Translations under genes and position numbers: made by a program
Source of the DNA: Verrucomicrobiia bacterium
GTDB lineage: Bacteria > Verrucomicrobiota > Verrucomicrobiia > Verrucomicrobiales > Akkermansiaceae
Direction: 5' to 3'
DNA length: 64,000 nt
Assembly (NCBI GenBank): GCA_947462875.1
Contig: CANHQJ010000002.1
Coordinates: 62,001-126,000 of the forward strand
Shown here: positions 49,133-64,000 of the stretch, piece by piece
Layout of the letters: every line of letters begins with the position of its first letter
Numbering within the stretch: position 1 is the stretch's first letter
The notes under the pieces: model-generated
What the model was told of the DNA's origin: nothing
The model's input: only the letters and a program-made list of their open reading frames with translations
Database searches by the model: none

Positions 49133-49155
49133 GTGTCATCAAAATGAGGACTAGG
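49133..49155 (+). promoter_or_regulatory. Shared upstream element, copy 1 (transporter gene)
   Basis: GTGTCATC followed by AAAATGAGGACTAGG lies about 130 bp before the transporter start. Two close copies occur upstream of the beta-repeat protein (53436) and GH92 (60064). The core shared by all is TGAGGACTA. It is not an obvious single -35/-10 pair; an operator or activator site is the favoured reading. Confidence 0.5.
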
Positions 49156-49284
49156 CAGAATGCGATCAAGAGATAAATCTAGTTGAAGTGTTTCCTGCCG
49201 AGAAAGTCAATCATACCATTAAGCATCTCCGCTTTTAGCGGTTGCTTCAGAAAATCATTCTACATATTTCCTTCAAAAAAACCA

Positions 49285-50727
49285 ATGATAAAAACACCAA
49301 TGCGTTCTGATAGTCGATTTGCTTTCATTGCAGTCACCTCCTTGTTTTTTATGTGGGGATTTATCTCCTGCATGAATGATCTGTTGATTCCCAAATTCAA
49401 GGCGGACTTCCACTTGACTCAGTTTCAGGCCAATCTCGTGCAATTTGCCTTTTTCGGAGCCTACTTTATTGTTTCGCTAGCTTATTTTCTGATTTCCGCA
49501 GCCAAAGGTGATCCGATTAACAAGATTGGTTACAAGAACGGTCTCGTGCTTGGTCTTCTCATCGCGGGCATCGGCTGTCTTCTCTTTTATCCAGCGGCTG
49601 AAACCAAGCAGTATGCCTTGTTTCTCGGAGCGCTGATCATACTTGGTTCGGGTATCACGATCATACAGATTGCCGCCAACCCTTACGTCACCATTCTTGG
49701 CCCAGAGGAAACCGCGCCATCACGACTGAACCTCTCGCAAGGTCTCAATTCCCTTGGCTATGTGATCACGCCACTCATCGGCGGTGTCCTGCTCTTCGGT
49801 TCGAAGGACCTGTACACCAGCGCCGGTGGCGTTGATGCGGTCAAAGTTCCGTATGTCGGTCTTGGCATCGCTTTCCTCTTGCTCGCCCTGATTTTTAAAT
49901 TGATATCGCTACCGAGCTTTCGACAGGAAGGTAGAGTCGAATCTGGTGTCAACGTCTTCCGCCATAAACATTTCGTTTGGGGTTGGTTGGCGATTTTTTT
50001 CTATGTCGGTAGTGAGGTGACTGTAGGCAGCATTCTAATAAATTACCTCCAAGACCCCAGTGTGATGGGCATGCCGGAGGAGGCTTCTGCTAAATATCTT
50101 TCCTTTTATTGGGGCGGTACGATGATCGGACGCCTGATGGGAGCTATCTCGCTCAGCAGCATCCGACAGTCTAGAAAATACCTATTCATGATACTCTCCG
50201 CCATCGGCGCTACTGGCGTGATTTTTGCCAACGCGACCTTTAAGGAAAACCTCACTAATGGTCATTTTATTGATCCCGCGGCGATTCTTCCCTATGTCGG
50301 CATGGTGCTGATGAGCTTTGCCTTCTTCGCTCTCGGTCGATCAAATCCCGGAAAAATGGTGGGACTTTTTGCTCTGGTAGCGATGGCGCTCACCGCATTT
50401 TCGATGGGATCGACAGGTGAGTTTGCCCTCTGGTCGATTATTGGAATCGGCTTGTTTAACTCCATCATGTGGTCGAATATTTTCAGTCTCTCGATTCGAG
50501 GTCTCGGCAAGGATACCAGTCAAGGGAGTTCGCTGTTGGTCATGATGATCGTCGGCGGTGCGATCATGCCCTTGATACAGGGCGCGCTGATGGACTCTCT
50601 GGGTGTACGAGCCTCGCTCTCTATCGTCTTGATCGGTTATGCCTACTTGGTATTTTTTGGTTTCTACGGTGCCAAAGCGGACGCACTCACCAGTGATATG
50701 GCCAGAGTGCCCAATGACGGTAAGTAA
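49285..50727 (+). CDS. FucP/GluP-type MFS sugar transporter
   Basis: This inner-membrane sugar:H+ symporter has 480 residues and 12 predicted spans. It has the fucose/glucose-galactose permease signature: FFMWGFISCMNDLLIPKFK near the start, AYFLISAAKGDPINKIGYKNG, and IQIAANPYVTILG. Together with the neighbouring GH92 mannosidase and ROK kinase, mannose or a mannose-containing sugar is the likely substrate; this is inferred. The start at 49285 was preferred over 49183 because the longer leader lacks family similarity. GC content is lower than in the housekeeping region. Confidence 0.88.
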   Translation: MIKTPMRSDSRFAFIAVTSLFFMWGFISCMNDLLIPKFKADFHLTQFQANLVQFAFFGAYFIVSLAYFLISAAKGDPINKIGYKNGLVLGLLIAGIGCLLFYPAAETKQYALFLGALIILGSGITIIQIAANPYVTILGPEETAPSRLNLSQGLNSLGYVITPLIGGVLLFGSKDLYTSAGGVDAVKVPYVGLGIAFLLLALIFKLISLPSFRQEGRVESGVNVFRHKHFVWGWLAIFFYVGSEVTVGSILINYLQDPSVMGMPEEASAKYLSFYWGGTMIGRLMGAISLSSIRQSRKYLFMILSAIGATGVIFANATFKENLTNGHFIDPAAILPYVGMVLMSFAFFALGRSNPGKMVGLFALVAMALTAFSMGSTGEFALWSIIGIGLFNSIMWSNIFSLSIRGLGKDTSQGSSLLVMMIVGGAIMPLIQGALMDSLGVRASLSIVLIGYAYLVFFGFYGAKADALTSDMARVPNDGK

Positions 50728-50738
50728 CGCAAAAGCAT

Positions 50739-51845
50739 ATGGATATCTTCTGTGATTCCAGAGTGGTGATGACGCTCGATGCCGGCGGCACCAACCTCCG
50801 CTTCGTTGCGATCCGTGGTGGCAAGCCTATCACGGATACGATTTTCTTGCCCTCCCACGGGTCCGACTTAAACCAGTGCCTTGCCACGATCATCGAGGGC
50901 TTCCAACGCGTGAAAACACTGTGCCCACAGCCTCCCTCTGCCATCAGTTTTGCGTTTCCTGGTCCGGCTGACTATCCTAACGGAATCATAGGCGATTTGG
51001 GCAATCTTCCCGGTTTTCGTGGGGGAGTCGCCCTTGGGCCCATGCTGGAAGACTCTTTCCACATCCCGACTTTTATCAACAACGATGGTGATCTTTTTAC
51101 CTATGGTGAGGCGATTGGGGGATTCTTGCCTCACATCAACCAATTACTGGAAAACGCGGGCAGCCCGAAACGATACAAAAATCTTTTCGGCATTACGCTC
51201 GGCACAGGTCTCGGTGGCGGTATTGTCCATGATGGACAGTTGTTCACGGGGGATCATTCGATGGCAGGTGAAGTCTGGTTGCTACGCAATAAATTCTATC
51301 CCCAAATGAACGCCGAGGAAAGTAGCTGCATTCGCGCCGTATGCCGAGTTTATGCGGATATTGCTGAAATTCCAATCGAGAATGCTCCGGAACCCAAAGA
51401 CATTTATGAAATCGCTCATGGTCGGCAAACGGGAAACCACAAGGCCGCAATCGATGCTTTCCTTCGTCTCGGCGAATCGGTAGGTGACGTGCTCTGCAGC
51501 GCTTTGACATTGATCGACGGGCTCGCCGTGATCGGTGGTGGAATCTCGGGGGCCTGGACGCTTTTTCTCCCGAGGCTCGTTGAAGAACTCAACAGCACCT
51601 TCACGAGTCCCGATGGAAACAAATTCCGGCGACTCACTTCCGCTGCCTTCAATCTGGAAGATCCCACCAAGTTGGATACCTTTCTCCAAGGGGAAAACCG
51701 CGTTATCCAGGTGCCTGGTAGCTGTCGCAGTCTGGCCTATGATCCACTTCATCGCATTGGCGTAGGCATTTCCCGTCTGGGAACCACCGAGGCGGTCGCA
51801 ATTGGGGCCTACGCCTTCGCACTGCACAAACTCGGTCCCGCGTAG
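50739..51845 (+). CDS. ROK family sugar kinase
   Basis: This 368-residue cytosolic kinase starts 11 bp after the transporter gene. The phosphate-binding motif is LDAGGTNLRFV (13-23); FPGPADYPNGIIGDLGNLPG and GTGLGGGIVHDGQL follow, with the catalytic Asp probably in NNDGD. The classical ROK zinc motif (CxCGxxGCxE) is absent: the equivalent segment reads AGEVWLLRNKFYP. Thus it belongs to a divergent ROK group. Coupling to a sugar transporter and GH92 suggests it phosphorylates mannose or a related hexose. Confidence 0.85.
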   Translation: MDIFCDSRVVMTLDAGGTNLRFVAIRGGKPITDTIFLPSHGSDLNQCLATIIEGFQRVKTLCPQPPSAISFAFPGPADYPNGIIGDLGNLPGFRGGVALGPMLEDSFHIPTFINNDGDLFTYGEAIGGFLPHINQLLENAGSPKRYKNLFGITLGTGLGGGIVHDGQLFTGDHSMAGEVWLLRNKFYPQMNAEESSCIRAVCRVYADIAEIPIENAPEPKDIYEIAHGRQTGNHKAAIDAFLRLGESVGDVLCSALTLIDGLAVIGGGISGAWTLFLPRLVEELNSTFTSPDGNKFRRLTSAAFNLEDPTKLDTFLQGENRVIQVPGSCRSLAYDPLHRIGVGISRLGTTEAVAIGAYAFALHKLGPA

Positions 51846-52029
51846 TCAAGATTACACTTTTTTAATTCTATCGTTAGATACTATTCTTTTTTCTCATCTC
51901 ATGTTCATCGTGAATAATCTACCGCTGCTGATTGCATTACCTTTATGCCAAAGCAAGAAGGCGATGCTCAGATCCCAAGTGGTTCGTTCGATGCTGGACA
52001 CATCGGGCTGAGATTGATAACACTTGGAA

Positions 52030-53390
52030 ATGAATCAAACATTCAGAATTTTGCTCCTGCTATTCTCAGTCATGGTAGTAGTAGCAGATGGGTCGAAAAA
52101 AACGAACCTATGTATTATATACGCTGATGACCTGGGTTACGGGGATGTGTCCACCTATCATGCGTCGGATGCAAGAACTCCGAACATCGATCAACTGGCT
52201 TCCGAAGGAATGACTTTCACTGCGATGCGGTCGAACTGCACGGTGTGCTCTCCGTCGCGCGCAGCTCTTCTCACAGGTTTTTATGCGGATCGTGTGGGTG
52301 TTCCTCGAGTGATTCGCACGAATACCGATGACACGTGGGGTTATTTCTAGCCGGACGTTCCCACGCTTGCCGACGAACTCAGAGAGGCTGGCTATCACAC
52401 CGCGTTGATCGGGAAGTGGCATCTCGGGCTTGAGTCGCCGAACATTCCCAACGAGCGAGGATTTGATGATTTTCATGGGTTTCTGGATGATATGATGGAC
52501 AGCTACACCACTCATCTGCACGGTGGAATCAATTTCATACGGCACAACTCCGAGGTTATCGAGCCGAAGGGTCACGCGACAGACATCTTCACTGACTGGG
52601 CCTGTGATTACCTTCGTCGGCAAGCCACGGCAGCGAAACCGTTTTTTCTCTATCTCGCCTGCAATGCGCCTCATTTTCCGATTGAGCCACCGGCAGACTT
52701 TCTTCAAAAGGTCAAAAGCCGCCTGCCGACACTCGATGAAAAACGTGCGCAAAACGTCGCATTCGTAGAGCACCTTGATGATCGGATTGGCAAGGTGCTT
52801 GCCGCACTGGGGGAAGCAGGATTGGAGAAAATACCATGGTGGTTTTTACCTCTGATAATGGCGGCTCACTCGCTCATACCCAAAGCAATGATCCCTGGCG
52901 TGGGGGAAAACAGGACCACTACGACGGCGGTTTGCGCGTGCCTTTCGTCGCGCGATGGCCGGGTCGAATCCAGCCAGGCTCACTGAGTGACTATCAGGGA
53001 TTAAACTTCGATCTCTTTCCAACATTTCTTGTAATTGCCGGAGTCACTCCCTCTCCCACATTGGACGCGGTCAGCCTGCTTCCTGTCTTCGATGGTGCTA
53101 CGCTCAGCAAGCCGCGTGATCTTTACTTTGTTCGTCGCGAGGGCGGTCTCGGCTACGGCGGGAAAAGCTGCGAAGCTATCATCAGCGACGGATGGAAACT
53201 GATGCAGAATGATCCTTTTAGCAGTATGGAATTGTATCATCTGACAAGCGATCCGTTAGAAAAAGAGAACCTTGTGAAAAGCAATCCCAGCATGGCAGCT
53301 CAGCTAGCAAAGCGGCTGCGCGCTCAGATTCAAATCGGAGGAGCCACACCTTGGCGAAAAGCTTCGCCTGAGCTGAAAAAAATGCGCTAG
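52030..53390 (+). pseudogene. Sulfatase, interrupted by a stop codon and a frameshift
   Basis: The three pieces join into one arylsulfatase (S1 family). Residues after the signal peptide read YADDLGYGDVSTY, then CTVCSPSRAALLTG with the formylglycine cysteine in C-x-P-S-R, then GKWHLGL, and SDNGGS further on. An in-frame TAG at 52348-52350 breaks the first piece just before PDVPTLADEL. In the poly-A run at 52828-52831 one base seems missing: the reading GAG AAA AAT ACC ATG would restore the VVFTSDNGG frame. Two independent lesions make a true pseudogene more likely than sequencing error, although the A-run defect alone could be technical. It probably once desulfated a sugar in the mannoside locus. 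Confidence 0.85.
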
Positions 53391-53435
53391 CACCTAGGTG
53401 AGGATATGACGGGATTATAAATCCCTGATCCGAGC

Positions 53436-53457
53436 GTGTCATCACTTTGAGGACTAT
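53436..53457 (+). promoter_or_regulatory. Shared upstream element, copy 2 (beta-repeat protein gene)
   Basis: GTGTCATCACTTTGAGGACT lies about 128 bp before the start at 53584, nearly the same distance as copy 1. It shares CTTTGAGGACTAT with copy 3 upstream of the GH92 gene. Confidence 0.55.
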
Positions 53458-53583
53458 GCTCTTTTTGGCTCAGCTGTCATGGTCGTCTTGATGAATCGAA
53501 ACGTATGGTTTCGAAACCCAATACTCGGCGTCTGATCGCCACTATTACTTCGTCAACCCAACATCGTAAGCCAAAAACCGACC

Positions 53584-56500
53584 ATGAAACGCAAAAGCTC
53601 GCATTCACTCTTCGTCGCTGCCATGACCCTGGCGGGAATTGTCTTCTCGGCAAGCTCTGCTTCCGCTGCCGCGCTGATTTGGGACATCACACCGGGTGAC
53701 GGCGCGAGCATCACAGCTGGAAGCGGTAGTTGGAATCTCACTGCTGGGAATACGGTTTGGAACAACGCCGGCACGAACGCGATTTGGGGCCATACCTCAA
53801 CTACCGACGGGAGCAACACCGCTACCTTTGCCGGCGCGGACGGCACACTCAACCAGTATGTGGTCACGCTTGGGGCGCAAATGGCTGCCGAATCGATCAC
53901 TTTCAACAGCAGCGGATACCAAATCACTGGTAGCACGCTGGCCTTGATGCCGACGACCACCACAAGCGGCCCCATCACCGTGGCCGCCGGCAAGACTGCC
54001 ACCATCAACTCCATACTCCGCTACGCCCACAACACCGCTGCGTCGGTGGTGGTCGGTTCTGGTGGCGTTTTGAATCTCGGCGGCGGTACTACTGCGGCCA
54101 ACAATCCGCAGTTCGCCTTCACCGGTGCGGGCACAGTCAATATCACGGCGGGCACATACGCATCCAACATCGGTAGCATCGGCAATGCCACCTTCAACCA
54201 GACGGGCGGCACTTACAATATCACGCCTGGAAACGGAGCTGGTTTCAACATCACCAGCACCACCCAAAACGTCGCCTACAACCTTTCCGCCGGCACCTTA
54301 AGTGTGAACGGCAACGCCACGACGGCTAACGGTGTAAGCAACGCCCACTTAGGTATCGGAAACGGAACCAGCACCTTCACATCCACCTTGGCTGTGAGTG
54401 GTGCCGGCATCATGAACGTTGGCACTACTGCCGGCACTTACGGCGAAATTCGCGTCGGAAATGCCATAGCATCCAACGGCACGTTCCAAGTGACGGGTGG
54501 CACGGTCACCGTGGGAACTGGCGCCGTCGGCAATAAGATTTACTTCTTCAAGAACGGATCCAGCGCGGGCTTCACCGCCAGCATGACCCAGTCCGCTGGC
54601 ACGGTGACGACGAACGGCATCCAGTTCGGTAGTTCCACAGGCACCTACGATGCTGGTTCAGCGGCGAACTTGACTCTCAGCGGCGGCAGTCTGTATGTCG
54701 GCGATCGAGGTATCATTCGCGGCAGTGGCACTGCAGCGGAGTCCCTCCCAGTCACCATCAAGCTCCAAGGAGGCACGCTCGGTGCCGATCAGAATTGGAG
54801 CTCCTCGATGGACATGAAACTTGGCGCTGCGACCATTCGGGCACAGGACGCCGCCAGCAACAGTCGCAATATCAGCCTCTCGGGCGTTCTCTCCGATGAT
54901 AGCACGGCGGGAACTCTTACCAAGACGGGTAGCGGTATTCTAACGATCTCCGGCGCAAACAGCTACACGGGTGCGACCACCATCAACGAAGGCACCTTAG
55001 CGTTGGGCGCGAGCAATGTCTTACCGAACGCATCAGCCGTATCTGTGGGAGGCGCTGCTCTCGATGCAGTAACATTTACGGATACCACCGGCACTTTGGA
55101 TGTCACTGGAAGCGCTACCATCAACCTCGGCCTCGGCGCCACACTCGCCTTCGCTGATAGCAGTTCCGTCGATTGGGTTGGAGGCACTTTGACCGTTACG
55201 GGAACCTTTGTTCCTGGTTCGTCCCTGCGTTTCGGCACGACCAATGGCGGATTGACAGCAAGCCAACTCGCTAGCATTTCCATAAGCGGCTATTCCAATT
55301 TCATTTTGGATGAACTGGGTTACCTTACCGTGGGTGATAGCACGCCACCGATCTTGACCAGCATTGTCGACAACAAGAGTGCTGGACCAATCGCAGCCGA
55401 TACCACAGTGACCTATACCGTGACTTTCAATGAGCCCATGAATGTCGCCACGGTCAACGCCGAGGACTTCGATAACGCGGGCACTGCCGGTTATTCGATT
55501 GGTGCGATTGCATCGGTGTCTTCGACTGTTTTCACGGTGCAGGTCACCAACACCACACCGGGCAGTCTTATTCTTCAAATTCCCGCAACGGCCACCATTA
55601 CGGATGCCGTGGGCAATGCGCTTGCTCGTGTGCCCGCTCCGGTCGATGACACCACCATCACTGTGAATTCTTCTCCTGCGCCCGTTCTCCTTGTGAGCAA
55701 TATGGTCGATGACAAGGCGGGGCAGCCTGTCGCTCCTGGCATGGTAGTGACGTATACCCTGACTTTCAGTGAGGACATGGATGCCTTAACATTGGGCGCG
55801 GAGGATTTGAGCAATGCCGGTACAGCCCTTGTGGATATGGGAGCCATTACCGAAATCAGTCCCGGAGTGTTCACCGTGCAAGTTACGCCGATTGGCACTG
55901 GCACACTGCGATTGATGGTCAACGCGGATGCGGAAATTCGGGCGGCTTCCTCGGGTAATGTATTAAACACGAGTGTTGCCATTCAAGATGCTGACACGAT
56001 CACAGTGGGAAATTATCTCTTCTGGGACACAGTGGCAGCAGATGGTTTTGTTTTCACTCCTGGCAGTGGAAACTGGGATTTGCTCTCCCAAAATGCCGTC
56101 TGGAACAATGTTACCTCTAACGTTTCTTGGTCCCAGTCCGGCACGACGGACGGCAGCAACGCCGCCATCTTTGCTGGGGTGGACGGCGCGCTCAACCAGT
56201 ATGTGATCACACTCGGTGCGCAAATGGCCACTGAATCGATTACCTTTCATAGCAGTGGTTACCAAATCACCGGTAGCACGCTGGCGCTCATGCCGACGAC
56301 GAGCACGAACGGTTCGATCACCGTCGCAGCGGCTAAGTCCGCTACGATTAACTCCGCCATCGCATATGCAAACAACAAAGTGGCCAATATAACCGCGAAC
56401 TTGGGCGCTACGCTCAGCCTCGGCGGTGGCGCGAGCAATTCGCAATACCAATTCCTAGGAGCTGGCACCATCAACTTGACCGGCGGCACATACACAGCCA

Positions 56501-59500
56501 ATGTGGGCAAGATGAATGCTGCGACATTCAATCAGAGTGGCGGCACCTTCAACATGAATCTGCCTACCGTCGGCGACGGGCATTATATTGGCTATGATGC
56601 CGGCCGCAGCGTGAGCTTCACCCTGGACGGCAATGCTATTATCAATGCTAACGCATCCGTCGATGCCAGTGTCAATTCATTCTTAGCAATCGGTCGCGCT
56701 GCGGGTAGCGCGGCCTTTACGAACTCATTGAATGTGCAGGGCAATGCCAATTTGAACATTGGCAACGCGGCCAACAGGGCCGGTGAGCTCCTGATTGCCT
56801 TTGATACGATATCGAACGGCACGCTGAATGTGTCGAGTGGCGCGGTTACCGTTGGAACCGGCAAAACTTCCAACCAGATTTACTTTTTCAAGGCTGGTTC
56901 CGGCTCTGGCTATGCTGCTGCAATGACGCAATCTGGCGGCACGGTCATCACCAACGGTATCCAGTTTGGTGGCACTGCGGGCACTTACAACCTGGCATCT
57001 GCCGCTAGCCTGACTCTCGGCGGCGGTAATCTGTATGTCGGTGCGGCTGGTATCACGCGAGGCTCCGCGGCCTCAGATCTGCCCATCAGTATCAAGCTTC
57101 AAGGCGGCATCCTCGGTGCCAATCAAAACTGGATTTCTGGTCTCGATATGAGGTTGGGTGCGGCTACCGTCCGAGCGCAGGACGCGGCTACCACGGCTCG
57201 CAACATCACTCTTTCGGGTGTGCTTTCCGACGACAGTGGCGCGGGAAGTCTTACCAAAACAGGAACGGGTGTGCTGACGCTGTCTGGTGTGAGTGCCAAT
57301 ACCTACACCGGCGCGACAATCGTTAACGCTGGCACCTTGAATCTCGGCAAAGTGAATGCAGTAAGCAGCTCCAGCTCTCTTACCATCGCCAATGGAGCTG
57401 CCTTGGCACTCAGCACGAGTTCCGCTAGCGTTCCTAGTCTTACATTTCAAGGCACAGGCACGCTGAGTTTCAATGTGGCAGACGGTCACGTCCTCACGGT
57501 TGATCAAACCGATGGCGTCACCAACAGTGGCGCGGCTGGTTCCGTGACGATCAACATCAGTGGCAGCGCGCCCGCGAGCGGCACCTATTCGTTGATTGAT
57601 TACACCGGCTCCCTGCAAGGCACTGGCTTCAGTGCCTACGCTCTCGGCAGTGTGCCCGCCGGAAAGAGTTACGCGCTTGCCAATGATACCGTAAACGGCG
57701 CCATACAGCTTGTTGTGACGAGTAACTACACCTGGACGGGCGCTACCGGTAGCGAGTGGAGTACTGCCACGATCGCTGGCTCCAAGAACTGGACCAAAGA
57801 CGGCAGTGCCATTGATTATATGAATGATCTTGGTGTGATCTTCGATAGCACTGCAATCAGCTACATCGTGGATATTTCCGGTGCTGACGTGACACCTCTG
57901 TCGGTTGCTTTTAACAGCGGCACTTATACTCTTCAGGGCACTCATACCATCGCGGGCTCTGGTGCAGTCACAATCCATTCGGGAGCCACCCTCAAACTCG
58001 GATCTTCTGATAAATTGCCCAATGGTGTTGGCGCTGGCAATGTCGCGCTGAACGGCACTCTTGATCTCAACGGTTTTTCGGATACGATCAACGCGTTGAC
58101 CGGTTCAGGCATTGTCGATAACACGGCATCGGCTACCACATCCACCTTGACGATCGGTGCCAATGCTGGCGGAAATTTTGCCGGTTCACTCACGAATACG
58201 ATAGGCACACTGGCGCTGACCAAAATAGGCAATACGGATGTCACTCTGAGTGGAAGCAATACTTACGGTGGAGCCACCACCATCAGTCAAGGTCGACTCT
58301 TCATCGGCGCAGCCAGTGCATTTTCCCCCAACACGGCGGTGGTAGTCAGCAATGGCGCGTCTCTGGTTTTGAATGCTGGTAGCTCACCTGCATTTGCCCG
58401 AAGTATCGCGCTTACGTCCGGATCTAATGTATCGATGCGTCAAACTGCCACTATAAGCAATGTGACACTTCCCTCATCCGGAAACGTCAAGTTCAACTTC
58501 GACGAAGCGGCCACTCAAGCGTTTAGCATCACCACTGCCCAAGCGCTAGCCGGTAGTCTTGATGTCCAAGTCGGCGGTAGCAATGCCTCGGTGGGTAACG
58601 TCACGCTCAATGCCATCATCAGTGGCAGTGAGGGAAGTTTGATCAAGTCGGGACCAGGTCGGTTGATCATACGTGGAGCGAATACGTACGGCGGTGGAGT
58701 CGCGATCAAGAATGGAACCTTGGAAAGTCAGAACACGACCACAACATTGGGCTCCGGCACGGTCACTCTGGGTGGAACTGGTTCGACAGGGGCCACTTTT
58801 CTCACCGGACAAAACAATGCGAATCCATTTGTGATCAATGCTCCCGACAGCGGTAACCTTGTCATTGGCACAAATGGTGGCGGTTCCGTGTTCACGATGT
58901 CTGGCGGAATCACCTTGAATGGAAATCTGACCCTGCAGACCTTTGAGAATGTTGTCAGCGGATCGACAGTAGCCCGGACGATTGTCTCTGGCAATGTGGC
59001 TGGGACTGGCAATTTGTTGCTGAATAATCTGGGACTCGCAGCCAACACCATCTCGTTAAGTGGTAGCAGTGTGAATCATGCGGGAAGCATCACCTTGCAA
59101 GGCACAGCGAGCGGCAACGTCACCATCAGTGCGGCTATTGGTTCGAATGTGACCGCTATCACGCAAAACAGTGCGACCTCGCCACTCGTTCTCAGCGGCG
59201 CGAACACTTACCAAGGCAATCTTGTCGTCAACGCCGGCATCGTTCGAATTTCGAATGCTCCTGATCCGCTCAACGCCAACACCGGTAATGATGCCTCTAC
59301 GGTCACCATCGCTGAGACGGGTGCGACGCTAGATCTCACCTACACAGGCACCGACAAAGTGGACAAACTGGTCATCGGTAGCACTCAGCAAGCGAACGGC
59401 GTGTATGGAAAAGTAGGCTCAGCCTCACCAGTCATTGGCATCCCTCAAATCACAGGGGACGGCACCTTGACAGTTGGAACCGTAACCCCCAGCGGCTTCT

Positions 59501-59862
59501 CTTCGTGGATCACCGGCACATTCGCCAATGGCACGGTTTCGTTAGAGCGACAAGGTCCCAATGACGACTTCGACAAGGACGGTATCAGCAACTTGTTGGA
59601 ATACGCCATTGCCGGTCAGGATCCCACTGTCAGCAATACCTCGATCAGCAGCTTCAGCGCGAATACCATCTCTTTCACCAAGCGCGAGGGGACGAGCGGT
59701 ATCAGTTACGATATCGAAATCTCCACGCTGCTGACCGCCGAGTCGTGGACCACGCTAGCCAAGCCTCCGGTGGTGGAAAGCCCAAGTGTAATTTCCTACA
59801 CCTTCACTCCTGGCACACCAGAGAAACAGTTCGCACGCCTGAAGGTGACGCAAGCACCTTAA
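53584..59862 (+). CDS. Giant autotransporter-associated beta-strand-repeat surface protein
   Basis: This 2092-residue exported protein has signal peptide MKRKSSHSLFVAAMTLAGIVFSASSASA. The N-terminal module (about 30-490) is repeated with clear similarity at about 815-1250. Shared blocks include LNQYVVTLGAQMAAESITF, GYQITGSTLALMPTT and NITLSGVLSDDS (ISL in the first copy). Between the copies lie two SbsA-type Ig-like domains (about 580-810; VTYTVTFNEPM and VTYTLTFSEDM). Many beta-strand repeats follow (LTKTGTGVLTLSGVSANTYTG; LSGSNTYGGATTISQG). The end has a calcium-binding-like DDFDKDGISNLLEYA and the tail EKQFARLKVTQAP. No enzyme domain or barrel was found. It may anchor or capture polysaccharide at the surface; this is inferred from its neighbours. 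Confidence 0.82.
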   Translation: MKRKSSHSLFVAAMTLAGIVFSASSASAAALIWDITPGDGASITAGSGSWNLTAGNTVWNNAGTNAIWGHTSTTDGSNTATFAGADGTLNQYVVTLGAQMAAESITFNSSGYQITGSTLALMPTTTTSGPITVAAGKTATINSILRYAHNTAASVVVGSGGVLNLGGGTTAANNPQFAFTGAGTVNITAGTYASNIGSIGNATFNQTGGTYNITPGNGAGFNITSTTQNVAYNLSAGTLSVNGNATTANGVSNAHLGIGNGTSTFTSTLAVSGAGIMNVGTTAGTYGEIRVGNAIASNGTFQVTGGTVTVGTGAVGNKIYFFKNGSSAGFTASMTQSAGTVTTNGIQFGSSTGTYDAGSAANLTLSGGSLYVGDRGIIRGSGTAAESLPVTIKLQGGTLGADQNWSSSMDMKLGAATIRAQDAASNSRNISLSGVLSDDSTAGTLTKTGSGILTISGANSYTGATTINEGTLALGASNVLPNASAVSVGGAALDAVTFTDTTGTLDVTGSATINLGLGATLAFADSSSVDWVGGTLTVTGTFVPGSSLRFGTTNGGLTASQLASISISGYSNFILDELGYLTVGDSTPPILTSIVDNKSAGPIAADTTVTYTVTFNEPMNVATVNAEDFDNAGTAGYSIGAIASVSSTVFTVQVTNTTPGSLILQIPATATITDAVGNALARVPAPVDDTTITVNSSPAPVLLVSNMVDDKAGQPVAPGMVVTYTLTFSEDMDALTLGAEDLSNAGTALVDMGAITEISPGVFTVQVTPIGTGTLRLMVNADAEIRAASSGNVLNTSVAIQDADTITVGNYLFWDTVAADGFVFTPGSGNWDLLSQNAVWNNVTSNVSWSQSGTTDGSNAAIFAGVDGALNQYVITLGAQMATESITFHSSGYQITGSTLALMPTTSTNGSITVAAAKSATINSAIAYANNKVANITANLGATLSLGGGASNSQYQFLGAGTINLTGGTYTANVGKMNAATFNQSGGTFNMNLPTVGDGHYIGYDAGRSVSFTLDGNAIINANASVDASVNSFLAIGRAAGSAAFTNSLNVQGNANLNIGNAANRAGELLIAFDTISNGTLNVSSGAVTVGTGKTSNQIYFFKAGSGSGYAAAMTQSGGTVITNGIQFGGTAGTYNLASAASLTLGGGNLYVGAAGITRGSAASDLPISIKLQGGILGANQNWISGLDMRLGAATVRAQDAATTARNITLSGVLSDDSGAGSLTKTGTGVLTLSGVSANTYTGATIVNAGTLNLGKVNAVSSSSSLTIANGAALALSTSSASVPSLTFQGTGTLSFNVADGHVLTVDQTDGVTNSGAAGSVTINISGSAPASGTYSLIDYTGSLQGTGFSAYALGSVPAGKSYALANDTVNGAIQLVVTSNYTWTGATGSEWSTATIAGSKNWTKDGSAIDYMNDLGVIFDSTAISYIVDISGADVTPLSVAFNSGTYTLQGTHTIAGSGAVTIHSGATLKLGSSDKLPNGVGAGNVALNGTLDLNGFSDTINALTGSGIVDNTASATTSTLTIGANAGGNFAGSLTNTIGTLALTKIGNTDVTLSGSNTYGGATTISQGRLFIGAASAFSPNTAVVVSNGASLVLNAGSSPAFARSIALTSGSNVSMRQTATISNVTLPSSGNVKFNFDEAATQAFSITTAQALAGSLDVQVGGSNASVGNVTLNAIISGSEGSLIKSGPGRLIIRGANTYGGGVAIKNGTLESQNTTTTLGSGTVTLGGTGSTGATFLTGQNNANPFVINAPDSGNLVIGTNGGGSVFTMSGGITLNGNLTLQTFENVVSGSTVARTIVSGNVAGTGNLLLNNLGLAANTISLSGSSVNHAGSITLQGTASGNVTISAAIGSNVTAITQNSATSPLVLSGANTYQGNLVVNAGIVRISNAPDPLNANTGNDASTVTIAETGATLDLTYTGTDKVDKLVIGSTQQANGVYGKVGSASPVIGIPQITGDGTLTVGTVTPSGFSSWITGTFANGTVSLERQGPNDDFDKDGISNLLEYAIAGQDPTVSNTSISSFSANTISFTKREGTSGISYDIEISTLLTAESWTTLAKPPVVESPSVISYTFTPGTPEKQFARLKVTQAP

Positions 59863-60012
59863 TAATAATCTGATTATTACTAGCGTATCGTTTTTTACTT
59901 AGTAATTGATAGGGATTGATCATCTTTATCTAAGCAACAATACGATCTAACGAATCGCTTTGAGATCTCCGGAACACGTTGATTTTCCTGATCTTTTTCA
60001 GAAAGTTCAACG
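59863..60012. other. Structured AT-rich spacer with two hairpins
   Basis: TAATAAT-CTG-ATTATTA (59863-59879) directly follows the stop of the beta-repeat gene. A second stem lies at 59977-60012, with outer arms CGTTGA/TCAACG and inner arms TTTCCTGA/TCAGAAA that have one bulge. The first may help to end transcription; the second could be a leader or terminator structure. No gene is seen in this stretch. Confidence 0.4.
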
Positions 60013-60063
60013 TTGTTCGCAACACGAGAGTGATGCCGCGATCATGGAATTGGCCTTGCCCAT

Positions 60064-60083
60064 GTAGTCACTTTGAGGACTAT
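60064..60083 (+). promoter_or_regulatory. Shared upstream element, copy 3 (GH92 gene)
   Basis: GTAGTCACTTTGAGGACTAT lies about 80 bp before the chosen GH92 start. The 13 bases CTTTGAGGACTAT are identical with copy 2. Confidence 0.55.
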
Positions 60084-60163: not shown

Positions 60164-62467
60164 GTGTTGCCTCAACTATTACTTATCAAACGAAAACTTA
60201 GTATTACAGCCAGTATTCTTCTGGTTGCTGGATTACCACCTGTTTACGCCATGCCCGAAGAGGGTAGTGTAGGGAAATATGTCGATCCTTTTATCGGTAC
60301 CGGCTTTCATGGACATACGTTTCCCGGAGCGACCACTCCGTTTGGGATGGTGCAACTCAGCCCGGACACCCGCACCTCTGGTTGGGATGCATGCGGCGGT
60401 TACTATGATGCTGACAAGGAGATATGGGGCTTCAGTCACACTCACCTCAGTGGCACGGGTATCGGCGATTACGGCGATGTGCTCGTGATGCCGTTCACGG
60501 GGAAGATGGGCATCGGTTCAGGAACTCCGAATCGACCCGATTACAGCTATCGCTCCGCCTACGATAAGAAAAACCAGGTAGCAAGTCCTGGATACTACAG
60601 CGTGTTACTGGACCGTTATCAAGTGAAAGTGGAACTCTCCGCGACGCCAAGAGTGGGCATGCACCGCTACACCTTTCCGCAGTGCGAAGAAGCGGGCATC
60701 GTGATTGACTTGAAACACAGTCTACAAAATCGTCAAACGCTGGAAGCATCGATTGAAGTTGTCAACGACCATGAAATTCGTGGATGGAGGCATGTCAAGG
60801 GATGGGCCCCCAACCGACGCATTCATTTTCACGCTGTGTTTTCCAAGCCATTCGTGGCGGAGTTGTATTCGGATGATGCCTTGCTGACGGGCGTGCGTGC
60901 CAACGGCAAGCAGATCAAAGCGAAGCTAAAATTTGCCACGAGCCAGAATGAGCAGGTGCTGCTAAAGGTGGGTATCAGTGCGGTGGACATGAATGGAGCC
61001 AAGGGGAATCTGATGACAGAAATCACCGACTGGGATTTCGATCGCATCGTAGAGACTGCTAGATCCCAATGGGAGAAACAACTCCGTAGCATCCGAGTAT
61101 CTGGCGGTAGCGAGGACCAGCGCAGGATTTTTTATACCGCGCTCTATCACAGCTCCATTTCGCCCAACATCGCGAGTGATGTCGATGGGCGCTACCGTGG
61201 AATGAATCAAAAAATTCATCAGGATTCCACTTACACCAATCACACGGTCTTTTCGTTGTGGGATACCTTTCGCGCCCAGCACCCGCTCTACACCATTATT
61301 GATCCGGAGCGTGACCAACAGTGGATTCGGTCGCTGCTGCGAAAATACGATGAGGGTGGCATCCTGCCGATGTGGGATCTCGCCTCAAATTATACTGGAT
61401 GCATGATTGGGTATCATGCGGTTCCTGTGATCGTGGATGCTTACACGAAGGGCTTGCGCGACTTCGATGTCAAAAAAGCCATGGATGCGGTGGTGTTTTC
61501 CTCGATATACGACGATCAAAAGCCCATTCCCTATCACACCGAGGATGTCAAAAGAGATCTGATGCCGAAGGCCAAACTGTACAATGCCACAGAGCGCTTC
61601 ATACCCGCAGACCAAGAACTTAAGTCGGTATCCAAAGCCCTGGAATTTGCCTACAATGACTGGGCCATCGCGACCATGGCCAAGGGCGTGGGGCGCGAGG
61701 ACATCGCCATGGAATACCACACACGAGCCAAGCGCTACCGCGAGTATTTCGACAAAGAAACCGGTTTCATGCGCGGCAAGAAACGGGATGGCACATGGGT
61801 GACACCTTTCACGCCCACCGACTCCAACCACAACTTGGGCGAATACACCGAGGGCAACGCCTGGCAATGGACTTGGTTCGCTCCTCACGACGTGCCTGGT
61901 CTGATCGAACTCTTTGGTGGCAAGGATTCATTTGCCAAAAAACTCAACGAGCTTTTCACCACAGACTCCACTCTTACGGGCGAAGAGATATCTGGAGACA
62001 TTACCGGACTCATCGGACAATACGCGCACGGCAACGAGCCGAGTCATCACATCGCCTACCTCTTTAACTGGGTCGAGCAACCTTGGCGCACGCAGGAGAT
62101 CGTCCAAAAGATCATGACCGATTTCTACAAGGCGACTCCAGGAGGGATCATCGGTAATGAAGACTGTGGACAGATGTCGGCTTGGTTCATTCTCAGCTCC
62201 ATGGGCCTCTACCAAGTAGCCCCGGGTGATCCGCGGTTTTCTCTGGGCGCCCCTCTTTTTACTGAGGCACGCATCCCTCTCAAGAGTGGTAAAACTTTCG
62301 TGGTGAAGAAGAAAAATGAAGCAAAGCATCATCTCTATGTCCAGAAAGTCACACTGAATGGCAAACCATTGACAGTTCCCTTCATCGACTACGCAGAGAT
62401 CATGTCCGGCGCAGAACTAATCTTCGAAATGGGCGCTCAAAAAACGGTCTTCTGGAAACAGCCATAA
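60164..62467 (+). CDS. GH92 alpha-mannosidase
   Basis: This exported calcium-dependent exo-alpha-mannosidase has 767 residues. The signal peptide runs from VLPQLLLIKRKLSITASILL to PPVYA. N-terminal landmarks are VDPFIGTGFHGHTFPGAT and PFGMVQLSPDTR. The catalytic part has GNEPSHHIAYLF, GGIIGNEDCGQMSAWFI and LGAPLFTEARI, all family signatures. GH92 enzymes remove alpha-linked mannose from glycans and mannans. The GTG at 60164 is chosen since the signal peptide begins there; a TTG at 60104 is possible. The gene carries the shared upstream element, tying it to the transporter and surface protein. Confidence 0.92.
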   Translation: MLPQLLLIKRKLSITASILLVAGLPPVYAMPEEGSVGKYVDPFIGTGFHGHTFPGATTPFGMVQLSPDTRTSGWDACGGYYDADKEIWGFSHTHLSGTGIGDYGDVLVMPFTGKMGIGSGTPNRPDYSYRSAYDKKNQVASPGYYSVLLDRYQVKVELSATPRVGMHRYTFPQCEEAGIVIDLKHSLQNRQTLEASIEVVNDHEIRGWRHVKGWAPNRRIHFHAVFSKPFVAELYSDDALLTGVRANGKQIKAKLKFATSQNEQVLLKVGISAVDMNGAKGNLMTEITDWDFDRIVETARSQWEKQLRSIRVSGGSEDQRRIFYTALYHSSISPNIASDVDGRYRGMNQKIHQDSTYTNHTVFSLWDTFRAQHPLYTIIDPERDQQWIRSLLRKYDEGGILPMWDLASNYTGCMIGYHAVPVIVDAYTKGLRDFDVKKAMDAVVFSSIYDDQKPIPYHTEDVKRDLMPKAKLYNATERFIPADQELKSVSKALEFAYNDWAIATMAKGVGREDIAMEYHTRAKRYREYFDKETGFMRGKKRDGTWVTPFTPTDSNHNLGEYTEGNAWQWTWFAPHDVPGLIELFGGKDSFAKKLNELFTTDSTLTGEEISGDITGLIGQYAHGNEPSHHIAYLFNWVEQPWRTQEIVQKIMTDFYKATPGGIIGNEDCGQMSAWFILSSMGLYQVAPGDPRFSLGAPLFTEARIPLKSGKTFVVKKKNEAKHHLYVQKVTLNGKPLTVPFIDYAEIMSGAELIFEMGAQKTVFWKQP

Positions 62468-62568
62468 ACCATATATAAAGTTGATTGGTAATAATGTTAC
62501 GAACAATATAGATTCTCGAATGCAGGAATTAACCTATTTTTATAGTTTTGTTCTTTGCCTCCATTCTA

Positions 62569-64000
62569 ATGAAAGCCCGATCCACTTATCACCGCGGTAG
62601 AAGTCATCATCTCATCGCCAGCAATCCTGGGTTTACCCTGGTCGTGACGATATCGCTGTTGGTTTTATTGACGGTCATCGCACTAGGAATGCTTTCCCTC
62701 ACCTCTGTTAGCCTTCGCAGCGGTTCGATGTTCGCGGCGCAGAAAAAAGCGCAGGCCAATGCACGCATGGCGCTTGTCTTCGCGTTGGGCGAACTGCAGA
62801 GCGAACTGGGGCCAGATCAGCGCGTCTCGGCGTCCGGTGGTCAGCGACTCGAGGACGGCGACAAGTCTGGTGGAAATCACTGGACAGGCGTATACGATTC
62901 ATGGCGGGCGAGCGACGAAAATAGGCCAGAGCCCGTTTTCAGACGGTGGTTGATTTCTGGTGCGCCTGAAGTGGTCGTCGATCCTAATGCTCCGAAAGAA
63001 GCCGCATCAGGAGTAAAAAAAATCACACTCGTGGCGTCCGATGCCGAACACAATGCGGTGGATGCAGAAATCACGGATCTGCCCGCGGGAGGCATCGCCT
63101 GGTGGGTAGGGGATGAGAATATGAAAGCCAAAATGGGCGGAGTTGTGGAGTCGACTGCCGATGTCACAGTGGCGCGCGCGCGCATGCAGGCCGCGCCGCG
63201 TGCGGGGCACGAGGTGTTTTTTGGCAACATGGTGGCAGCGGATGATCCGATCATGGATCGGTTGTGTTCGGGGAAGACCATCGATCTGGTGGGAAAACCC
63301 GAGAAGGCGATTTTTCATGATGCGACCAGCTTCTCGTTAGGCTTGTTGACCAACGTTCGCGGCGGCGGACTTCGTAAGGATTTGAATTTTCTTCTTGAAG
63401 CTCCCCAACCGAATCCCAACACACCTGAGGTGGCTCCGCTCTATTCGGTTGGCACTACACCGGGCATCAACCTAGGAGAACTATGGGTCGATCATAACAT
63501 CTGGGCGGAGATCGTTTATCCTTCGAATCCACCCCGACACGCTGATGGTAGCACGATTCCGTCCGGCATGCCCATTTTGGTATGCACTGACATCAAAAGT
63601 GATCCGTTCCTCTTATACAAGCACCTGCCCCGCTTGCAGTTGACGCTTCTTTACTCACTGATCAGTAAAAGCAGGATGGTCGGAAATGTGAAGCAATATG
63701 ATCTGTTTCTGGTGGCTGACCCCGTCTTTACTATTTGGAATCCGTTTGATGTCACACTGCACGTCCCCGCATCTGCTTTTGCTACGTTCAAAAGCTGGGC
63801 CATTCCCTATGACTTGAATCTCAGACTAGAAAATGGCCCTCTTGGGAGTAAAACGGCATTTACCCGCTCGATCAAACAACTCTCTAACAATCGGCTCTTC
63901 TTTTTTTATGGCCAACTCGGACGAGGACAGAGCTTGGTGATGCGTCCGGGAGAGGTGCAGGTCATCGCTCAGGGATTCGGCGAAAAAATCAAAGAAGTTC
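62569..64000 (+). CDS. Verru_Chthon cassette protein A-like, prepilin-type leader (partial)
   Basis: Start ATG 62569; open for 477 codons to the window edge with no stop. The N-terminus has a prepilin-like leader with NPGFTLVVTISLLVLLTVIALGML and then AQKKAQANARMALVFALGELQ, the hallmark of the PilX-like A protein of the Verru_Chthon cassette. The middle contains WWVGDENMKAKMGG and DPVFTIWNPFDVTLHVP. The function of the cassette is unknown; pseudopilin-like export is assumed from the leader. The partner genes (B, C, D) would lie outside the window. It is 101 bp downstream of the GH92 gene. Confidence 0.82.
   Translation, partial: MKARSTYHRGRSHHLIASNPGFTLVVTISLLVLLTVIALGMLSLTSVSLRSGSMFAAQKKAQANARMALVFALGELQSELGPDQRVSASGGQRLEDGDKSGGNHWTGVYDSWRASDENRPEPVFRRWLISGAPEVVVDPNAPKEAASGVKKITLVASDAEHNAVDAEITDLPAGGIAWWVGDENMKAKMGGVVESTADVTVARARMQAAPRAGHEVFFGNMVAADDPIMDRLCSGKTIDLVGKPEKAIFHDATSFSLGLLTNVRGGGLRKDLNFLLEAPQPNPNTPEVAPLYSVGTTPGINLGELWVDHNIWAEIVYPSNPPRHADGSTIPSGMPILVCTDIKSDPFLLYKHLPRLQLTLLYSLISKSRMVGNVKQYDLFLVADPVFTIWNPFDVTLHVPASAFATFKSWAIPYDLNLRLENGPLGSKTAFTRSIKQLSNNRLFFFYGQLGRGQSLVMRPGEVQVIAQGFGEKIKEV

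Follow-up and report, generated by a model that had tools for sequence, protein, structure and literature searches.

A conserved inverted repeat in a verrucomicrobial glycan locus and its predicted NarL-type regulator

In the 64,000-nucleotide stretch of DNA analysed here (the window), genes for a sugar transporter, a giant surface protein and a GH92 enzyme are preceded by nearly the same short element. This raises the question of what the element is and which protein, if any, would act through it on all three genes.

Three copies of one element and the genes they precede

The core TGAGGACTA is found exactly at positions 49145, 53448 and 60074, in a longer near-identical stretch beginning at 49133, 53436 and 60064, which bears out the three near-identical copies named in a preliminary description of this DNA. 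The element covers 21 bp and has one orientation at all three genes. The first predicted operator copy, TGTCATCAAAATGAGGACTAG, lies on the forward strand at 49134-49154 (arms 49135-49141 and 49145-49151; E 3.2e-4 with the R1 profile). Copy 2, TGTCATCACTTTGAGGACTAT, lies on the same strand at 53437-53457 (arms 53438-53444 and 53448-53454; E 7.9e-7 with R1 and 1.8e-5 with R2), as does copy 3, TGTAGTCACTTTGAGGACTAT, at 60063-60083 (arms 60064-60070 and 60074-60080; E 1.0e-4 and 0.0016, respectively). Copies 1 and 2 have GTGTCATCA-nnn-TGAGGACTA in common. The sharing between copies 2 and 3, previously put at 13 bases, is real, but it extends over 16, TCACTTTGAGGACTAT.

A matrix made from the three copies, and thus trained on the same sites that it scores, gives them 33-37 bits and the next place in the window 15.2, in agreement with the earlier view that there is no other clear copy in the window. 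A scan of the genome and of relatives, proposed in the preliminary description, finds the extended form TCANNNTGAGGACTA only three times in the whole genome, always in the window, and the element recurs in other species. The R2 profile search at E<=0.05 gives three sites in this genome, namely copies 2 and 3 and a degenerate site outside the window; copy 1 is absent from the matches at this threshold. From the 26-mer to the start codon we measured about 131 bp for the transporter gene (ATG 49288), 124 bp for the surface-protein gene (ATG 53584) and 78 bp for the GH92 gene (GTG 60164, a start chosen by us), close to the 80-130 bp first described.

The genes described next are all on the forward strand. 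The MFS sugar transporter gene (49288-50727; Pfam MFS_1) has orthologues with an upstream site in genomes G003, G150, G187 and G216, and with the palindromic form of the site in G193. A ROK-family sugar kinase gene (50739-51845; Pfam ROK) belongs to the same operon. It is followed by a sulfatase gene whose reading frame is broken into three (52024-53390; the pieces match Pfam Sulfatase and SGSH_C); in G216, an uninterrupted sulfatase of 454 aa comes after the MFS and ROK genes. The second target encodes a giant PATR surface protein of 2092 aa (53584-59862; Pfam PATR), and the third is the GH92 gene (60164-62467; Pfam Glyco_hydro_92 and 92N; mechanical reading-frame start 60104), whose orthologue in G003, 84% identical, also has the element upstream. 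Its conserved neighbour encodes a large prepilin-like protein of 1127 aa (62548-63999, extending past the window end); this family (cluster c2) is present in 7 genomes, and the in-window part of the protein has no Pfam match.

The designation of this region as a probable mannoside locus is supported by the GH92, MFS and ROK genes and by a phosphomannose isomerase, found in one congener only; GH99-like genes, with scores just under the cut-off, add weakly to it. Sulfatases, absent from the preliminary description, are abundant at the locus. The predicted substrates of the regulon are mannose-rich, probably sulfated sugars.

Form, conservation and position of the element

The element is an imperfect 7-3-7 inverted repeat, in which the centres of the two 7-bp arms lie 10 bp, i.e. 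one helical turn, apart; in copy 3 the arms agree at just 5 of 7 positions. The 3-bp spacer was found in all 64 sites of a gap-free alignment, and 15 of 26 columns are invariant among 14 sites, other species included; the tail ACTAT is fixed. The R2 profile search detected sites in 27 genomes, and in other species the element precedes orthologous and related genes. In more distant relatives the imperfect dyad is replaced by the perfect palindrome GTCCCC-N5-GGGGAC. An ORF start is faced by 65 of 73 sites, as compared with 37 of 73 on the opposite side and 732 of 2000 random places.

Beyond the conserved block of about 20 bp, the flanks carry little information except for a weak -10-like peak at a fixed spacing downstream of the element, the height of which was reached in none of 500 shuffles. 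Single-site -10 scores are weak for the window copies. The dyad is located at about -44 relative to the inferred start, upstream of this peak, and such a position suggests a site for an activator. For activation rather than repression the weak -10-like signal is our single indication.

A candidate regulator and competing explanations

Two genes on the reverse strand, 7-10 kb beyond the window at the distal end of this locus, encode a NarL/LuxR-type response regulator (G000:C2:133088-133720) and a sensor kinase (G000:C2:133737-135623). The element had been regarded as a regulon marker for an unknown regulator; this view is supported, and the pair (G000:C2:133088-135623) provides a candidate. 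The regulator has a receiver domain (Response_reg) and a C-terminal GerE helix-turn-helix, both above Pfam cut-offs, and it aligns over its length with NarL (1a04, E 2.9e-33), its nearest solved relative. In the adjoining kinase, HisKA_3 and HATPase_c are both above the cut-off and a Y_Y_Y region is present. DesK ranks near the top of the fold matches for the kinase part; the 50 matches listed for the kinase model cover kinase parts only, with none for the sensor. Nine gene families are common to at least three of the loci's genomes, and, as judged by Pfam, none of them apart from the regulator/kinase pair is a DNA-binding system. No element was seen before the regulator operon itself in this genome.

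Sites and kinase also occur together. The R1 profile, whose training sites had been collected independently of the kinase, detects sites at E<=0.0042 in 12 of 260 genomes; the kinase, at an identity of at least 55%, is likewise present in 12 of 260, and both occur in 11 (Fisher p 1.9e-17, a value that overstates independence because the genomes are related). Among 238 genomes outside the R2 training, seven have the kinase, and these include all five in which sites were detected. Every one of the seven genomes carrying the palindromic form has the kinase. Haloferula sp. BvORR071 and Luteolibacter marinus NBU1238 are two relatives in which the locus combines the kinase with the palindromic operator. 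When 80 kinase-homologue loci were ranked, sites were present at 10 of the 12 best-matching and at none of the other 68. In G160 a site is present and the kinase was not found; in G181 and G256 the kinase is present and no site was found. The kinase cut-off of a 28-genome count was fixed after the list had been viewed.

We consider it probable (about 0.85) that the NarL-type response regulator is the regulator of this operator and that a local alpha-mannoside/sulfatase regulon of these relatives of Akkermansia is thereby activated. Binding, phosphotransfer, ligand and activation are what we infer in the following scheme. The kinase would sense a periplasmic mannose-containing, probably sulfated, oligosaccharide through an all-beta domain and phosphorylate the response regulator, a dimer of which would occupy both 7-bp arms. 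Bound at about -44, the dimer would activate the adjacent weak promoter, so that uptake (MFS, ROK), surface capture (the PATR protein) and hydrolysis (GH92, sulfatases) could be switched on jointly.

The same regulator might bind the site as a repressor or with a mixed effect, as NarL, in the excerpts of PMC4549865, represses frdA and activates other genes depending on position. The dyad at about -44, upstream of the -10-like peak and not over the inferred start, argues against this, and we regard such an effect as improbable, albeit the best of the alternatives that we graded. Slightly less probable is that a different locus-borne regulator uses the element as its operator, for instance the ROK protein in the role of a repressor. 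The ROK family includes repressors that respond to sugars, and the gene lies within the locus and adjoins the MFS gene; but the protein has a ROK domain only, with no helix-turn-helix family in Pfam, it was found in 5 genomes of the shared-family comparison versus 27 genomes with sites, and the nine shared families contain no further DNA-binding one. The element may instead be bound by an unlinked regulator that happens to have the same genome distribution.

The preliminary description had further considered an alternative sigma factor. A promoter of ECF type would agree with the fixed orientation of the element towards the gene and with the fixed ACTAT tail, and an ECF-like sigma gene was seen by eye in the G180 and G187 loci. 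However, the conserved block is one dyad, too short for normally spaced -35 and -10 boxes (a pair with about 16-17 bp between them is not found inside it); the dyad turns into a perfect palindrome in relatives, the -10-like peak is separate and downstream, and there is no sigma gene among the nine families. A sigma factor promoter is very unlikely.

With one mismatch, the 9-mer core is found 4 times in the window versus 5.2 expected, and the exact 9-mer 10 times in the genome versus 20 for the reversed control; the bare count is weak evidence, uninformative alone. Preceded by TCANNN, the 9-mer occurs in this genome only as the window's three copies (control 1), and the probability that three of ten random positions fall inside 11 kb is 0.0026. 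The relaxed dyad, with up to three mismatches, gave 381 matches in the genome versus 156 for the reversed control, an excess taken as a composition effect; at zero mismatches there are none besides copies 1 and 2. Despite this lack of enrichment of the bare 9-mer in window or genome, chance resemblance of the three copies is hardly credible, since the element is kept across genera before different genes with unrelated flanks, and an order-wide scan with the palindromic form gave 15 matches, spread over 7 of 288 genomes, and none for the control.

Divergence, significance and comparison with known systems

A more tentative proposal, to which we would give somewhat less than even odds, concerns the history of the NarL-type system. 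It would represent a distinct glycan-sensing two-component branch within the organism's family, with a 7-3-7 operator. In the clade of the window, the glutamate at position 183, at the start of the recognition helix, would have been lost (E to P or A) and the operators would have drifted from GTCCCC-N5-GGGGAC to GTCnTC..TGnGGAC, with the core targets (transporter, GH92) kept, so that the regulator and its scattered operators would have diverged together while the regulon persisted. The apparent co-divergence of recognition helix and operators would be a compact natural case in which to study regulator-operator co-evolution.

Members of the Verrucomicrobiota play an important part in degrading complex sugars, which are often sulfated. 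Our searches of the open-licence PMC literature listed no operator or regulon described for glycan loci of this phylum. Now that a candidate regulator can be named and sites of a predicted 21-bp operator are available from 27 genomes, control of these loci becomes directly testable, and the operator can be used to search for target genes across species, unlinked ones included.

Several known systems resemble the proposed one in part. TCS07 of Streptococcus pneumoniae, from another phylum, exerts two-component control of host-glycan degradation, with GH92 mentioned in the excerpts of PMC7075642 and PMC9603416. The CrbS/CrbR acetate system of Pseudomonas and OsdR/DevR, as excerpted in PMC5715377 and PMC5069765, are LuxR-family systems with inverted-repeat sites obtained through comparative genomics, but their kinases, targets and site sequence differ from those described here; in the OsdR consensus, AGGGCCGATCGGCCCT, the G arm comes first, in the reverse of the sense seen in our element.

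The HTCS_Man alpha-mannan regulons of Bacteroides (BT2628, BT3302, BT3786; excerpts of PMC3878776) place mannosidase and uptake promoters under locus-encoded two-component control with a periplasmic sensor, as is proposed here. According to the same excerpts, each HTCS is one hybrid polypeptide that carries an AraC-type domain and acts at direct repeats. None of these three traits is found in the system described here, which has its kinase and regulator as two proteins, a GerE domain and an inverted-repeat site.

NarX/NarL of Escherichia coli shares with the candidate system the receiver and GerE domains and the inverted 7-bp arms. The NarL operator is 7-2-7, with a 2-bp spacer, while our element is 7-3-7, and a 3-bp spacer is unusual for a NarL-type operator; the outer bases are TA in the NarL site and GT here. 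NarL serves genes of nitrate respiration, whereas the element precedes glycan genes and the kinase has a Y_Y_Y region. In the excerpts of PMC4549865, the NarL site of napF lies at -40 to -49, and the engineered NarL site TACCCCTAAAGGGGTA resembles the palindromic form of our element in its CCCC...GGGG sense.

Three copies in the window and their conservation

According to the preliminary description, a shared stretch precedes the genes of a sugar transporter, a giant surface protein and a GH92 enzyme, and these gene identities were borne out by Pfam, which assigned the three products to MFS, PATR and GH92. Exact TGAGGACTA occurs in the window at 49145, 53448 and 60074; set in register, their sequences are TGTCATCAAAATGAGGACTAG, TGTCATCACTTTGAGGACTAT and TGTAGTCACTTTGAGGACTAT, and they lie about 131, 124 and 78 bp upstream of the genes of the MFS transporter, the 2092-aa PATR protein and GH92, respectively. 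The 9-mer count by itself proves little: with one mismatch allowed, 4 copies were found in the window against 5.2 expected, and 10 in the whole own genome against 20 for a reversed control pattern, with TCANNN ahead of none of the seven remaining own-genome copies.

Between the ROK and PATR genes of the window, a sulfatase gene is spread over three frames (52024-52350, 52405-52986 and 52836-53390; overall 52024-53390), and the same place in genome G216 holds an uninterrupted 454-aa sulfatase; the window gene is either decayed or affected by sequencing errors.

The GH92 query matched anything in 11 of 57 relatives. In the congener G003, GH92 is 84% identical to that of the window and is preceded by the element (AGTGTCGTCACTTTGAGGACTATT), a second copy of which lies between a sulfatase gene and a DUF1080 gene. 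Scanning for TCANNNTGAGGACTA gave matches in 51 of 260 family genomes, most genera being near the control level. Ten more places, in addition to those of the window and the two of G003, were fetched, picked from CTTT forms and from members of genera g1 and g13; nine carried the extended element, followed, where the contig was long enough, by MFS, GH92, GH99-like or PATR genes, and the tenth (G004), a position inside a 649-aa ORF, was without it. In a gap-free alignment of fourteen sites, which took in the window's three and the two of G003, 15 of 26 columns were invariant. With a threshold of E<=0.0042, the sequence-only model R1, built from these fourteen, matched 12 of the 260 family genomes; relaxing it to E<=0.1 added seven further ones (E 0.056-0.085). 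Element sites were concentrated inside single loci.

Gene families of the loci and the two-component pair

Protein clustering of the fetched loci (352 ORFs; families counted when common to at least three genomes) gave nine shared families: sulfatases, PATR/GH99-like, prepilin-like, a 235-aa protein, MFS, ROK, GH92 and a two-component pair. From this gene content we infer a sulfated alpha-mannoside as the substrate. This prepilin-like protein (1127-1144 aa), so called from its start (GFTLVVTLSLL), accompanies the locus in 7 genomes, including the window from 62548 onwards and the G003 locus sequence L063:10116-13550, and had no Pfam match. Also in G003, a phosphomannose isomerase gene beside PATR and sulfatase genes is apparently split into two frames (L063:938-1962). 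By eye, genes of an ECF-like sigma factor and a probable anti-sigma factor (clusters c17 and c16) were present only in the G187 (L138/L139) and G180 (L140) loci, where an alginate-lyase-like gene follows them.

The pair consists of a Response_reg+GerE regulator and a Y_Y_Y+HisKA_3+HATPase_c kinase, whose best Y_Y_Y stretch taken alone is below the passing score and whose sensor part is all-beta in the predicted structure (mean pLDDT 83). In the own genome it is located at C2:133088-135623, 7-10 kb past the window end, and beside the giant sulfatase gene adjoining it lies a further site, the fourth, which is degenerate (C2:132996-133018, E 0.0103). At E<=1e-30, the kinase search matched 70 of the 260 genomes; identity reached at least 55% in twelve, of which 11 were within the 12 motif genomes of R1 (Fisher p 1.9e-17, kinship among genomes making such p-values overstate independence). 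The exceptions were G160, with the motif and without a kinase of that identity, and G151, with the kinase, where R1 missed the motif and a broadened matrix gave two sites.

The palindromic form and divergence of the probable regulator

In 10 of 11 loci whose kinase is more distant (39-52% identity), the broadened matrix revealed the element in a palindromic form, of the kind TGTCCCC-G-CTTT-GGGGACTAT; it found no site in the G181 locus. Across 288 genomes of the order, exact TGTCCCCNNNTTGGGGACTA was matched 15 times and the reversed control 0 times; the matches came from 7 genomes, all of which have the kinase, and 0 of the 159 genomes from other families had one. At E<=0.03, model R2, trained on both forms (64 sites, from twenty-two of the genomes), matched 27 of the 260 genomes; two further ones had partial matches (E 0.045 and 0.047). 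Twenty-six of the 27 fall among the 28 with a kinase at E<=4e-84, a cut-off chosen after the list was seen; the kinase match of G132 spans 247 residues only. Of the 238 non-training genomes, seven carry the kinase, including all five that had R2 sites; in G181 and G256 the kinase is present, but the R2 search gave no site. Another control covered 80 loci of kinase homologues in named genomes and gave 23 matches in 10 loci, several of them the same records as trained loci; all 10 were within the 12 best-matching loci, and the other 68 gave 0.

The regulator residue at the beginning of the recognition helix, position 183, is P in the window's clade (A in G212) and E in the palindrome clades; position 194 and five positions outside the helix also split the two groups. 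The E group forms one side of a branch of the kinase tree (support 100/100), thus the changes in the helix and in the putative operator amount to a single event and the association is a correlation only. In G193, which carries the palindromic form, sites still precede MFS and GH92 genes, so these targets were retained; targets differ in other branches, e.g. an alpha-fucosidase in G143.

Several putative operators of palindromic form are remote from the kinase or on another contig (G027:C1:3483267 and 5945748; G139:C9:236552; G218:C13:254623) and are likely unlinked regulon members. G165 has a second, diverged kinase/regulator pair (C1:1667788-1670115) with its own palindromic operator before a DUF1080/DUF7133 fusion gene, which is a duplication with a change of target. 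The same genome bears identical operators about 5 kb apart (C1:1551095 and 1556241), each before a near-identical short prepilin-like gene, a recent duplication within the regulon.

Anatomy of the putative operator and comparison with known systems

The element core consists of inverted 7-bp arms with a 3-bp spacer, one helical turn separating the arm centres. Among 64 distinct sites, a set biased by having been picked by score, arm pairs 1, 2 and 6 were complementary in all 64 and pair 3 in 62; pair 5 was T-A in 21, C-G in 17 and other pairs too. For 65 of 73 sites, the same strand had an ORF start (ORFs of at least 180 codons, called mechanically) no more than 450 bp away, as compared with 37 of 73 on the opposite side and 732 of 2000 random positions. 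The -10-like score of 59 non-redundant sites was highest 18 bp past the 26-mer (a peak of this height arose in 0 of 500 shuffles, and in 1 of 500 for the 15 palindromic sites alone), which places the centre of the dyad near -44 relative to the inferred start. Such a position would suit an activator beside the -35 region, and may be the reason for the fixed ACTAT tail and the fixed orientation.

Among the papers listed in literature searches, none described an operator of such kind in Verrucomicrobiota. By sequence, the solved structure closest to the regulator is that of NarL, which binds 7-2-7 inverted heptamers, e.g. TACCCCTAAAGGGGTA, and at napF occupies -40 to -49 (PMC4549865). The palindromic form is very similar to the NarL site, but it is not classed as one because its spacer is 3 bp. 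A functional parallel is offered by the HTCS_Man regulons of Bacteroides, which involve AraC domains and direct repeats (PMC3878776).
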